From the NCBI RefSeq assembly GCF_003473485.1, contig NC_053042.1, forward strand, positions 29,995,262 through 30,059,261: a DNA stretch of 64,000 nt. Direction: 5' to 3'. The notes beneath the pieces are model-generated. The model was not told where the DNA came from. It saw nothing but the letters and a program-made list of their open reading frames with translations, and searched no databases. Positions 3,956 through 62,950 of the stretch are shown in pieces. Source of the DNA: Medicago truncatula. Taxonomy: Eukaryota > Streptophyta > Magnoliopsida > Fabales > Fabaceae. Within the stretch, counting starts at the first letter, position 1, and every line of letters starts with the position of its first letter. Both the position numbers and the translations under genes were made by a program.

Positions 3956-5215
3956 TCCCACATTGCTCAGTGCTCGAGAGTATTAGAAGATTCATAGATA
4001 TTATCTTCTTTATTTCTTTTTAATACAAGTTTTCTTTCTTTTTGTATGAATTAGTGGTGCCCATCCTTTCTGGAATTTTTGGGTTCTCAAATAAGTCCCC
4101 AGCACCACAAACTATTTAATATTTATGGGATGATAATCATATACATTTTTCACTATGTACTTTCATATCTCAATAGTGTTTATGAAATGATAATCATATA
4201 CACTTTTCAGGATGTAAGTACCCTGATGATTGATGTATCCGTGTCTTAGATTACCAAAATTTATATCATGTTTCTTCTTATGAAGTGTGTATGAGGGTAC
4301 ATTTATTTATAACTATATCATTGGTGCGAAATATCAATCGACTTTATCAAAATAATTAATCTTTGTCAACGAATTTGACTGACCATCTTTAGTAAAGTCT
4401 CCATTCTCAACCACGTTTTTTCCATCCACAAAGTTCAAACTAACATTGCTTAAAAAATTTGAGTCTAGTTCTACTCATAGATCCTTTAACTTAATTTAAA
4501 GTTCTGTATTGGTTCTTTATTACTTTTAGTTATTATTATTAAAAGGTGTTTTATCTTTTTAAACATCAAGAATGTTGAATTTTTTTAGAGCAACAATGTT
4601 GAATCTTTAGTGATTTCTTTCCAAAATTATGAAAAAAATGTATGGCTTGATATTTTGCCGAGATTCTGGTCTACATTGTAGAACACGTTTAGTCGCCTGA
4701 TTTTTGCACAAGGCTACCAAGCTTTGAAAACAAATGAATTTACCTTCAACTGTTTGGGCATGAAACTAAGGACAACATAAGCACTTGGAGAGTAGAAGGG
4801 GCATAAATTAAAAGAGCACGACACTTTGCTTATATTAATACTACATGATTATAGAAGAATGTACAATAGATTTTCCAAAATTACAAGGAAAATGGAGTCA
4901 AGGGATATGACTCCTCTTAGGTGAGCTATTTACTTTGGATAGTAAAGTATATATCAACCATTGATAAACAAATCACCGGTTGATAGTATATCCTCATGCA
5001 TAACAAATCGTGAGTTTCTCACTTTACTAACTACTCATCTTACCGATTCAAATTCAGACAAGGTGGTGAACATTCATATAATCACATGCGTACAGAGTCC
5101 AAATTTTGAAACTATATGTGAATATATATTATCACACTCACAATAGATATGCAAACGTTTCCTTTAAAAAAAAAATAGATATGCAAACGTATGAATCCAA
5201 TGGCCTAAAATATAT
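3956..5215. other. Intergenic between convergent genes
   Basis: This is the 3' flank of the tail-anchored protein gene and of ABCB29, which converge here. It is AT-rich. The phrase 'gatgataatcatatacattttcac' occurs twice near 4130-4210. No gene or clear mobile element is seen. Confidence 0.5.
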
Positions 5216-8200
5216 TCAAACAATGTGACCAGAAGATAGCAATGAATCCATGTGACCATTCAACATAGTTGAACGAGGCAGCTCTTCTAGCTTTCCATTA
5301 TCCAAAAGGAATATTCTTTTAGCCATCATAACGGTTTCCAAGCGATGAGAGATCACAAGCACCTATGAATTGAAAACTGTAAGAATTACTTAAGGTCTCA
5401 ATTAAGCATATCCAATTACTAACATATTGAAAACTGAAAGCAAAATAATCAAATGGCAAAGTAGCTCTGGAAACTCGAATGTCATAACATTGTTGGTCCT
5501 GTGATATAGACTAGGATCTGAATGCATCAAAGAAATAAGAGAAACTTTGCAAAAAAAAGAGAGAGAATAAGATAAAGAGTGTACAACAAATACTTATCTA
5601 GCTGATCATATAATGTTATATGTCACATGACAAATAACAGAAAAGGTTAGTTTCCATACCGTACGATTTTCCATTAAACGCTCCACAGCTTGTCTCACTA
5701 ATAACTCAGATTTACTATCCAACGCAGAAGTTGCTTCGTCCAGAATCAATATAGAAGAATTTTGATAGAAAGCCCTTGCAATAGCCAGTCTGTAAGTTTG
5801 AGAAAGGAAGTAACATATCAAATTTGAATGATATTTCATAAATATTCAAAACATTAAATTTGTCCTTCACATCAATCATAGCTACCAAAAGCTCTTTCCA
5901 AACAGAACAAAATTAGCTGTTAATTCATGGTTTATAGAACAGAATGAAATTTGAATTTGAAAATTTACCTTTGCTTCTGGCCTCCACTTAAAGTTGAGCC
6001 TCTTGGTCCAATATTGGTATTGTATCCTTCTGGAAGTTTCCTAATAAACTCGTCTGCATAAGCAGTTTGAGCTACATGCTTCACTTTCTCCATGTCAATT
6101 TTTGTTGTCAGATCCCTATAACCAATGTTTTCAGCAACTGTACCTGAAAAAAGTGTCTACAATCATATACCATCAGTATTTGAGATTGAAGTAAAAACCA
6201 GATATCTAAGTGCAGTGGAGCTAACCTTTAAACATAAGGTGTTTGGTAACTACCCAAGTTTCTGAAAACTGGTTCTTGTGGAAACTAAATTTGAGATAAA
6301 AATGGTGTTCTTTAATACATCATTTTGAATATGGCTATTTTCTAGTTCAACCTTTTCCAATTCTCTCTATTCCATTCTATTCTTCCTTTCTCTCCCCTTA
6401 AGCTAGATCTTAAGGGTAGATAAATGATGAGGATAAGTATAGGAATTACTCGTTAATCCAAATGATCAATAAGCATGATATGCCTCTTGAATTTAAAACG
6501 GGATTAGACAAAAATAGTTTAAAATATATTTTTTAAACCAAACTTTGTTTCAGTCAAAACTAGTTGCAAGATAACCTGAATTTATATAACTAGTTTATCA
6601 TAAACAGTATCAAACCAGTTATGGGAGTTGCCAAACTGCCCCTAAAAGCTTGTACATTTTTTAAATTCTTGTGAACATTGTGAACTGAAGTCAAATCCTG
6701 CATACAAAAGAAGAAGAATACAGAGGCTTGAGTGATGAATCACTTACTATATCTTGAGAAACTACACCAACATGTCTTCTTAAACTCTGCAAACGAATGT
6801 TCTGGATGTCTTGGTTATCAATCAGTACAGAACCTGCGGGTATAAGAACATGAATAAAAGCTATTGATAAGCAAGATGAGAACTGAGTGTAAAAGTAAAA
6901 CCAGTTAGTATAAGAAATGTATTTGATAAATAACTATTCCCATGATAAACCACACATGATAAAATTAAGTATATTCATCTTTATATTAAATAAACGGCTC
7001 ACCAGATATAGGATCATAAAGCCGAAGCAACAGTTTTGCCAGTGTTGTTTTTCCTCCCCCAGACGGGCCAACAATAGCAACTATCTCTCCAGGTCTAACA
7101 TGAAGGTTCAAACCTTTTAAGATATGAGGTAGGCCATCATTGTACTTAAAGGAGACATCACAGAATTTCAGGTCCCCCGTAACATGGTCCAAATCAACAG
7201 CATCTGGTTTCTCAACCACCTATTATTCAGAAAGAAAAAAAAGATCTATTATTGAAGTTCATCTAGCTTTTTTTATAAAAAAAAAGGGGGAAAGAGCAAA
7301 TTATTGTTGATTAAAGTGACACTAATGAGAAAACCGTTCTCGAGGAGATTTGAACCTCATCCATTGAGATTGCATGGTTAAAACTTTTACTGAGCTGACA
7401 ACTCATGGACATCAGTTCATCTAGTTACCTTGACAGAAAATTTTAAAATAGTAGAACAGGATATTATATGCTCGAACCATCCTAGATTTTTTTTCTTATT
7501 TCATCAATTTCAAACAAATTGAAAAGAAAATATAAAACAATAGAAAAGGAAGGTGAAAGTTAAACAAGCATGCAGATCCAATGTCATATAGGGTCTTTTA
7601 AGCAAGTGGTCATAAATTTACCTTATTTTTGAACCTGGTCATAGCAAACAAGCGTTCGATAGCTGGCTCTCCTTCTCTCCATTCATTGTAAGCTTTTCCT
7701 ACATCCTGCGTTATTCTTTATTTTAAGATTGATAACCAAAGACAGCTCCACAAAAGCTGAACCATGATAACAATACCTGAATAGGCTCAATTAAGAAAAG
7801 CAATGAAGTCACAAATGAAACCAAGCTACAGCGATCAAATGAACCTCTTGAAATCACGATCGAACCTGCGCAAAGTATGGAAAGAACTCCAAAATAAATA
7901 GCCTGAATAACCTGGGGAATTACTGCTTTCATCCTTTTTTTGTTCAGCATCGCAGAGAAGTCCATCAGGGCCAGTCTCTTGAACCTGACACTCTCAAGTG
8001 ACTCTGCGTTGTTTGCTTTCACAAAGAGATACGCGGGCAGCATCTAATTGTTTAGGAGGGGAAATATTGAACACAAGGTAGATAACAAGATTTGCAAACA
8101 ATGCAAGGCTTTTAAGATTTCTTCGTAAAGTACATTGAAGGAGCGTGAGACAATCACGTTTACCTCATTCAGATAAGCTGAGAGAGCAGCAATGCTAATA

Positions 8201-21331: not shown

Positions 21332-21820
21332 CTAGGAACTGCTGAGATTCAGCTTACATGTGGGAGAGATATGTTGCGCATTCTGCAAAATATATGTTGC
21401 GAATCGAATATCAGTTTCACAAGCTTCATAGTCTATAACTTCAAATTTTGTTAGATGAGATGAAACACATTCTGGAACATGATCTGGATATTCCCAATGC
21501 TCTATGGTTGTTGAATACTTCTCCTGTCAATCCGATACAAAATAGGATTTGTAAAAATACTCAATAGAAGAGAAGAACTGGTGAAATTTTTAGTAACTAT
21601 ATTAAACAAACCTTTGCAATGTAAAGAGAGTGAAGTTTGGGACAATTCTGTAGCATTTTCACCACTACCTCCCAGTCATGAATGCCTTGAGACCAAAATA
21701 GTTCAAGTTCGGTTAAGTTTTCAAACATGGGAAGGCTTTTGTCAAATGAATTGATTTCTTTATTGGAAAGACTTTGCCCAATCTGCATAGCCACATCACA
21801 AAAAAGAAAATACATCTTAT

Positions 21821-22140
21821 AAATACAGATATCAAACATGATGAAATCAAAGGACATTATTTGAATGCTACTGCGGGCATCTCTTTTTGGAAGAGAGTTC
21901 AGTTTCCCTGTCTTTTGCTCCGTTCTCAAGTCCCTGAACTTACGAAGTCTCGTTTCTATAGTATACCAATTCGTTAACATACCTCCGAGCCATTTTTTAT
22001 TAACATAATGACATCGAGCTCATACCTTGGTATCGTGGCAATAGTGAGCCAAGGTAGTATTTGCAGTGAATCCACCGGTTAAGTAGTCATGCATTACGAT
22101 AGGCACGCCCAATTCTCTAGCAAATACAGATATCAAACAT
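21821..22140. other. Chimeric nuclear plastid DNA (NUPT): rbcL + rps2 + rbcL pieces
   Basis: Three plastid gene fragments lie end to end in an intron of the F-box pseudogene. 21843-21877 (plus) encodes '[12 protein letters not shown]' of RuBisCO large subunit. About 21877-22024 (minus) encodes '[18 protein letters not shown]', then '[20 protein letters not shown]' and 'LPKRDA' of plastid ribosomal protein S2. About 22031-22129 (minus) encodes '[19 protein letters not shown]' and '[10 protein letters not shown]', again RuBisCO large subunit. The two rbcL parts come from neighbouring codons of the gene but stand in opposite orientation. A 19-bp direct repeat 'aaatacagatatcaaacat' brackets the block (21821-21839 and 22122-22140), and its right copy overlaps the rbcL edge. 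Confidence 0.9.
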
Positions 22141-22143
22141 CAC

Positions 22144-22173
22144 ATATAATATAATATAATATAATATAATATT
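22144..22173. repeat. (ATAAT)n microsatellite
   Basis: Five to six units of 'ataat' immediately right of the plastid insert, inside the pseudogene intron. Confidence 0.9.
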
Positions 22174-22963
22174 GATTATAAAAGAAGATGAATCATCATC
22201 ATATATCATACCCCATATACAGATAGATACACTTGACATTATAAACTGCTTTGAACGGCACATTGAACAATTCGATACAAGCCGATTTCAACTTTGACAA
22301 GTGTTTAAAGTACCCTCCCTCTGGAACACCGACGTTAGCATTTACACGATATATAGTCAAAGATTTCAATTTGGGACACCCAAAAAGAAGTTTCATGAAA
22401 TCCTTTGTATCATCGAAAAAAATGTGAAACAGAAATAACGTTTCGAGCAAAGGAAGATCAACGGAACAGTGAAGCATAGAGCCTACACTTATCCTCGTCG
22501 TCAAATGCAGATGCACAAGTGTTTTACAGCAGAAAATGGTAGGTGCCAATGGAACATCTAACAAGTGTAGATAGAGATCCTCCACGCCACGTCGTTTTGT
22601 TGCTTCAAGCCAATTGTCGAAACTCAAACAGCTGTCAGCCTCGTCCTCCCAGAGTTCAGACTGATACCTAAGAGAAAGAGATTTGAGGGTGAGGCGTTGA
22701 GCCCATGGAGACCAACATAACAATTTGTCCATAAATCGAAAGAATTAAATCCAGTCCTTTGAGTCGTTTACACCTTCATCATCAATGTCGAGACGGGAGA
22801 GTGAGTAGCACAATGAGACCCACCTCTTTGAAAGAATGGTAGTTGCATGGAAGCAAAGAGAGAATGCGAGTTAGTATATCATCGGGGGGAAGTCGTTGAG
22901 GGTATCAACTTTCACCAACTGTGACGGCAACATTTTTTTCCTCTTACTATTTTTGTTTTCCAT

Positions 22964-61900: not shown

Positions 61901-62950
61901 TTGAACTTCATCTAACTTAATTACTTCACTAACTACAATTAATAAGGATATTTTAATAAATGATATTAATTTTACCATTGAAATCAACACAATTAATCAT
62001 TTTCTTAATAATCGTGCACAAATCTTAAACGACCATTATTTAGAGAGAGATGGAGTAAAAGGCATCACCCTTGATTGGGTGGAATGTATTGGAAGAGCAG
62101 AAGAGAGAGGGAACTTACAAACGACCATGAGCCCTGTGCTCTGCAGGTGCATGCCAATGAAGTTGTTTCAATGAATAATTCATTCCATTTATATTAATAT
62201 CGCCCACTTTTCCTTCAAAATGCACCTATAGATACCAAACTCAACAATATTAGTTAGTTGATATCAGAATTTTCCTTTGACAAAACCAAAACTAAAAATT
62301 TGACCTAATAATAATAATAATAATACAAAAATATCGCATTAGACATCAAACATGTTTTTATATAAAGTGTCGGTGTTACATAGTTAATCAGATAAGCACA
62401 ATTTTTCTTTAGAAGGAAAAGTCTTTTCAATTCAAGTTAATTTTTATTTTTAACTGATTTGTTAGTTGATGAAAATACATACCCCAATACTGTATTGGTG
62501 GTTAACAAGTGTGGCATTTGTAGGAAGGTAGTTTCTGTCTAAGGATTTCAATACATTGTTCACAACAATATTTGTCATTGCAAGATCCACTGGACTCTGT
62601 GCTTTCCCATTTGAGCATGCTGCGAATGATTGTTTTAGTGTTCCCCATTTCAGAGGACCATTTGGTCCAATATAACTAAAATTAACCGAATCTAGCATAA
62701 AAATTAGAAAAAAAAAAACCTCAGTCATAAAAAATTATCAGCATATCATAACATGTAATTTAGTCTTCACAGATTAAGAAAAACAATAATACTCAGTTGT
62801 AGAATGAAGGAATGAGAAAAATGTAGCACTGAATTAATTTTTTGATATTAAGTTATGAAAAATGCAAAATGAAATCGTACCATGATTTGCTGAAGTGCAT
62901 AGAGCCAAAGCAGCTATGGAAAGGATTGAGATGTAAATCTGCAAGGCCAT
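58990..62950 (-). CDS. Alpha-type carbonic anhydrase, secreted, complete
   Basis: Exons 62950-62881, 62691-62483, 62225-62119, 59718-59613, 59467-59285, 59118-58990 give 267 residues. The enzyme interconverts CO2 and bicarbonate. Residues 1-22 (MALQIYISILSIAALALCTS) are a signal peptide, so it should enter the secretory route. The zinc ligands are His about 116 and 118 (QLHWHAPAEH) and His about 135 (AELHLVHF), with the gatekeeper Glu about 122, a Thr in 'SLTTPPC', and Cys 49 and 214 placed for the usual disulfide. The family resembles plant alpha-CA/nectarin-like proteins; the exact member is not assigned. Intron 3 is 2.4 kb and loaded with repeats. A truncated copy lies 19 kb to the left in the same direction. 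Confidence 0.94.
60011..60207. mobile_element. Small MITE private to carbonic anhydrase copy 2
   Basis: 197 bp, ends GGGTTAATAGTGTTTTACCC and its near inverse (GGGTTAATGATATTTTACCT). The flanks TATATTCT and TATATTCA are a decayed 8-9 bp duplication. Copy 1 has one uninterrupted 'tatatattctgttgaattac' at the matching place. Confidence 0.8.
60785..61080. repeat. Two local tandem duplications in carbonic anhydrase intron 3
   Basis: A 50-bp unit ('gaatgagtgttaaaaaagtt' start) occurs at 60785-60834 and 60835-60884. A 68-bp unit ('ttcacattagaatataaata' start) occurs at 60945-61012 and 61013-61080. The copies differ at one to three positions, so both are young. Not present in copy 1. Confidence 0.9.
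61541..61634. repeat. 44-bp-arm hairpin in carbonic anhydrase intron 3
   Basis: The left arm 61541-61584 ('tttatatgaaactttgtttg' and on) and right arm 61591-61634 pair with one mismatch over 44 bp around a 6-base loop. Copy 1 (about 41,818-41,865) has only the left-arm sequence. Confidence 0.9.
61783..62055. mobile_element. Stowaway-like MITE private to carbonic anhydrase copy 2
   Basis: 273 bp, ends CTTCCTCCGTCTCATAAAAA and a shorter, decayed inverse ('gagagagatggag'), flanked by TA. At the matching place copy 1 reads 'caaaataaaaggcatc' with a single TA. Confidence 0.88.

Follow-up and report, generated by a model that had tools for sequence, protein, structure and literature searches.

An intron of an F-box pseudogene contains a complex insertion of plastid DNA in nuclear DNA (NUPT), made up of rbcL in sense orientation, rps2 in antisense, a 9-nt filler and rbcL in antisense, 282 bp in all between the two copies of a 19-bp target duplication. 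It lies in the window, the whole 64,000-nucleotide stretch of Medicago truncatula DNA analysed here (C1:29995262-30059261). The block probably originated in one break-repair event, in which a staggered break was repaired by template-switching copying off plastid DNA. The initial annotation had described three plastid pieces, rbcL-rps2-rbcL, within a 19-bp direct repeat; all of these main elements were found, with small corrections. The features are as follows.

21335..22963, minus strand: host F-box/LRR/FBD pseudogene (alignment to C5 paralogues; Pfam matches)
21821..21839, plus strand: target duplication copy 1, 19 bp (repeat search, 19/19; the C5 paralogue site has a single exact copy)
21836..21846, plus strand: ACATGATGAAA, four target bases and seven further bases forming an exact rbcL 11-mer, a proposed short initial template step (exact-match scan against local rbcL)
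21842..21879, plus strand: piece A, rbcL sense, 38 bp exact (match to local rbcL)
21876..21879, plus strand: GGCA, 4-bp microhomology between piece A and rps2 (join simulation)
21876..22021, minus strand: piece B, rps2 antisense, 146 bp (C42 match; uS2c at the protein level)
22022..22030, plus strand: filler ATACCTTGG, 9 nt (sequence)
22031..22129, minus strand: piece C, rbcL antisense, 99 bp (96/99 to C7:7379345; Rubisco large chain)
22122..22129, plus strand: AAATACAG, 8-bp microhomology between rbcL and target (join simulation)
22122..22140, plus strand: target duplication copy 2, 19 bp (repeat search)

The assembly comprises 42 contigs and 429,922,655 bases (430 Mb). Contig C42 (117,500 bases) is the plastome contig; it opens with ndhF, closes with atpE and atpB (translations read by eye) and contains plastid tRNAs, with 20,000 bases masked over three stretches. 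It ends just short of rbcL, as is concluded because a nuclear copy on C7 (L030, C7:7374500-7384400) matches the final 4.1 kb of C42 with 99.6% identity and then continues into rbcL, with several small indels. The reference for rbcL is therefore the nuclear copies on C7, C3 and C6 only, not a plastome rbcL; in its local positions the facing edges of the two rbcL pieces are 246 and 271. C41 is a probable mitochondrial contig, identified by a cox1 search in which it has one of the seven matches (the rest are on C2, C6, C7 and C8). In searches of the assembly contigs, C41 matched neither the pieces of the block nor its junctions. A distant-mode search of a plasmid collection with the block gave zero matches, as expected.

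The plastid origin of the block is seen in both nucleotide and protein matches, and its flanks are a nuclear F-box gene. Piece B matches C42:78681-78829 (blastn, 147/149, E 1.8e-71), with one difference by direct count across the 142 bases 21880-22021, and its protein match is chloroplast uS2 (uS2c, E 5.8e-22). Piece C matches the C7 copy at 96 of 99 positions (of the three differences, two are gaps in C7), and its protein match is the Rubisco large chain (E 6.5e-17). Alignment to the plastid genome, which the initial annotation had proposed, thus gave the pieces and orientations listed, with rps2 matched to C42 and rbcL aligned to nuclear copies. The orientations of pieces A and B and the 99 bp of piece C, in minus orientation, are as annotated; the lengths of piece A (38 bp exact against 35, possibly with seven more rbcL bases ahead) and piece B (146 bp against about 148) are revised. 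The two rbcL pieces are indeed inverted relative to each other, but lie 24 bp or about 8 codons apart in the gene, not about ten codons, and all rbcL-derived parts come from a single stretch of about 150 bp (local positions 209-361). One repeat copy does overlap rbcL, by 8 bases (22122-22129) where about 9 had been given. The filler between pieces B and C (22022-22030), absent from the earlier description, matches neither flank; these 9 nt apart, all 282 bp are assigned. The block therefore joins at least two non-adjacent plastome pieces in mixed orientation, the arrangement that defines a complex or rearranged NUPT.

The repeat, AAATACAGATATCAAACAT, is identical in its two copies (21821-21839 and 22122-22140, 19/19) and has no further exact copy on the plus strand of the window. 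An F-box paralogue on C5 (C5:17304169-17304295) has the same intron with matching flanks, one exact 19-mer and no insert. This is the empty site with one copy of the repeat that the initial annotation had foreseen, found in a paralogue, not in another accession. Two more C5 paralogues lack the insert, one having the 19-mer with a one-base insertion and one being more diverged. F-box relatives also lie on C2, C3, C6 and elsewhere; the comparison covers the three C5 loci. With its single 19-mer, the uninterrupted C5 site shows that the repeat is a true duplication of the target and that the window copy carries the derived state. Next to repeat copy 2, a (TATAA)n run (window 22145-22172) exceeds that of the C5 paralogue by about 15 bp.

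Target duplications are also formed by LINE-type target-primed insertion, where they measure about 7-20 bp, and the 19 bp found here falls within this range. LINE endonucleases prefer T-rich ends, to which the bottom-strand end ...CTGTATTT is loosely similar. There is no 3' poly(A) or simple tail beside 22121 or 21840 on inspection of the sequence, and a LINE-type insertion was rejected on the absence of this tail. It is extremely unlikely that a retroelement-type endonuclease made a 19-nt staggered nick and that plastid templates then served to complete its aborted insertion; were this so, retroelement cutting would open sites for plastid-to-nucleus transfer.

The two internal joins of the block, rbcL/rps2 and rps2/filler/rbcL, were each searched for as a 24-mer, tolerating 3 mismatches at most. 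In the 430-Mb assembly each has one match, which is the window, and the backward control of each has 0. Both joins being unique, no assembly contig shows a pre-scrambled source, an inference limited by the masked and missing parts of the plastome, and the order of the pieces is absent from the organelle genomes within the limits of C42 (20 kb masked, end missing). It is very unlikely that the block came in one transfer from an organelle genome in which the pieces already stood in this order. The masked 20 kb, the end of C42 before rbcL and a comparison made with the plastome of this assembly only leave some room for such a source; against it, both junctions are unique among the 42 contigs, the nuclear copy keeps the usual rbcL-atpB adjacency and rps2 is about 38 kb away on C42. 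The uninterrupted paralogue site and the assembly-unique joins support the view, already expressed in the initial annotation, that a break was repaired with a patchwork of plastid DNA as filler.

The host gene is dead, as had been annotated. Compared with the C5 paralogue it has frame-shifting indels and a premature stop (TAC to TAA), and its exon pieces still give Pfam matches to LRR_At5g56370 (E 1.4e-11) and FBD (E 1.6e-13). In Pfam, no family, the F-box included, was matched by the piece of the broken first exon. The C5 paralogue has an F-box (E 2.6e-7) and is not called intact because part of a later exon is missing. The insert sits in the host intron, placed by eye at about 21787-22210 with its GT and AG ends kept. 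Since the insert is intronic, the death of the gene need not stem from it. Near the F-box paralogue cluster on C5, locus L034 (2663-7200) has long open frames that resemble, by eye, a copia-type retrotransposon.

Substitution rates lie between 6.5e-9 and 1e-8 per site per year. The block differs from its references at 1 of 142 positions in rps2, 0 of 38 in piece A and, by one substitution, 1 of 91 in piece C, a total of 2/271 (0.74%), and its earlier description as not ancient is a fair one. By hand calculation at these rates the insertion may very roughly be 0.7-1.1 million years old, with a range of about 0.1 to 4 million years given only two events. Later decay and rearrangement of NUPTs are described (PMC7037861). 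That a larger simple NUPT was inserted here and scrambled afterwards is the most improbable of the explanations considered, as against it there are just two substitutions in 271 bp, the ends fit the 19-mer exactly and the 282 bp are assigned but for 9 nt.

Three joins of the block show microhomology; the chance figures for joins and filler come from tests picked after inspection of the sequence and are somewhat flattering to the reading. At the right end, AAATACAG is common to rbcL and target (8 bp), and in simulations random joins reach at least 8 at a frequency of 1.25e-4. The rbcL/rps2 join has GGCA (4 bp, at least 4 by chance at 0.020), and the left end has ACAT (4 bp, chance 0.019 if the entry into rbcL is GATGAAA). 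The left join contains ACATGATGAAA, whose source in rbcL lies between those of pieces A and C and which overlaps piece A by TGAAA (5). The chance of such an 11-mer is 0.1-0.6% within 1.5 kb of rbcL, and 10-22% with the whole plastome contig as source. Read as a template switch, the 11-mer explains the lone mismatch there (GG/GA) without mutation; alternatively, the ends may simply have been joined over 1 bp of homology, with one G-to-A substitution. A different source for the left join, ATGATGAAAT (local position 116, C7 copy), was rejected, being shorter and lying where C7 is deleted relative to C3. Eight bases of the filler, TACCTTGG, form the reverse complement of CCAAGGTA, which belongs to piece C; the chance of this is 0.55% with piece C as source and 1.8% with the whole insert. 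The complete 9-mer has one further occurrence on C42, no more than chance predicts at this length. Clear microhomology is missing from the rps2/filler/rbcL join, and a direct join would have 1 bp. Microhomology together with nearby-templated filler characterises polymerase-theta scars, and both are present here, with one join lacking microhomology and one reduced to 1 bp on the plainer reading.

The joins bear on how the pieces were put together. NHEJ could have ligated plastid fragments end to end, either ahead of their insertion or in the course of it, with fill-in of a staggered break yielding the 19-bp duplication and no template switching. PMC6215612 and PMC7037861 give NHEJ ligation as the standard reading of complex NUPTs, in which microhomology of 1-7 bp is usual. 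For this block we regard ligation as rather unlikely; the rbcL parts are inverted and drawn from one short stretch, additional steps are required for the filler of 9 nt and for the 11-mer at the left join, and a 38-bp ready-made duplex fragment is possible but awkward. Judged from the sequence, copying with template switching, as in polymerase-theta-like end joining, appears favoured over ligation of ready-made fragments because of the 8-, 4- and 4-bp microhomologies, the two-step left rbcL join and the inverted filler copy. The double use of TACCTTGG and the origin of the rbcL parts in a single stretch are also easier to obtain by copying.

We therefore infer one event, in which a break with staggered ends was repaired by templated copying, polymerase theta being the enzyme. 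The F-box pseudogene, or a still-living ancestor of it, would have been opened in its intron by two nicks spaced 19 nt, and this spacing would explain the 19-bp duplication. The resulting 3' ends (left, ...AAACAT; right, ...CTGTATTT) would stop exactly at the microhomologies, so that both could prime on rbcL, annealing through ACAT and AAATACAG to plastid DNA located in the nucleus. By repeated release and re-annealing, the left end would copy a few rbcL bases, then 33 new rbcL bases and then rps2. The right end would copy about 91 rbcL bases and then, snapping back, eight of these again. Joining of the strands and fill-in would yield the duplication; the same sequence would result whether the overhangs were 3' or were 5' and filled in.

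The proposed steps have parallels in other systems. In Arabidopsis, microhomology-primed extension and release, when repeated, yield fillers through polymerase theta (PMC10923293). In mammalian cells, complementary 3' overhangs at breaks give rise to tandem duplications (PMC8355091). In tobacco, breaks are the limiting integration sites for plastid DNA, and inactivating single repair pathways raises the rate of transfer (PMC12181080); neither polymerase theta nor any other single enzyme is thereby shown to be required. The block resembles polymerase-theta end joining, including T-DNA capture in Arabidopsis, in its microhomology-primed steps and nearby-derived fillers; in PMC10923293 this pathway mostly deletes at the break, whereas the block has a duplication and no target loss, and the role of the enzyme here is a putative one.

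Rearranged NUPTs, with several pieces of organelle DNA in mixed orientation, are a described class (PMC6215612, PMC7037861). They share with the block several plastid fragments, mixed orientation, short microhomology and break repair. Unlike them (PMC6215612, PMC7037861), the block is very small (282 bp), has end homology of 8 bp, just above the quoted 1-7 bp, has a filler copied from a neighbouring piece, and has an exact 19-bp target duplication with a single-site paralogue. It adds to this known class and is unusually legible, since a small, young scar and an empty paralogous site make every join resolvable to single bases. It suggests that plastid DNA may act as a copying template in break repair, beyond serving as ready-made filler. 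We regard the block as a single event of an ordinary class and claim no function for it. Vaughn and Bennetzen (2014) reportedly described, in rice, tandem duplications that contain inserted patches, in which an insertion from several donors is flanked by a direct target duplication. The block would be similar in being bracketed by a duplication and drawn from several donors, and different in that its donors are plastid. The titles and abstract openings returned by a search of open-licence papers gave no evident account of plastid DNA with templated insertion and target duplication.

Mixed NUPTs are not unique to this locus in the assembly. Among seven other plastid-derived loci (L003, L004, L005, L014, L030, L031 and L032), one joins rbcL to other plastome regions, within limited flanks. 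L031 (C3:12142500-12152400) contains at about 4193-5505 a mosaic joining rbcL to C42:45417-46010 and 62026-62127. L003 and L004 (C4:12691360 and C4:12567345) are near-identical plastid stretches of the rps2 region, about 124 kb apart; over 3.1 kb they share 99.9% identity with C42.
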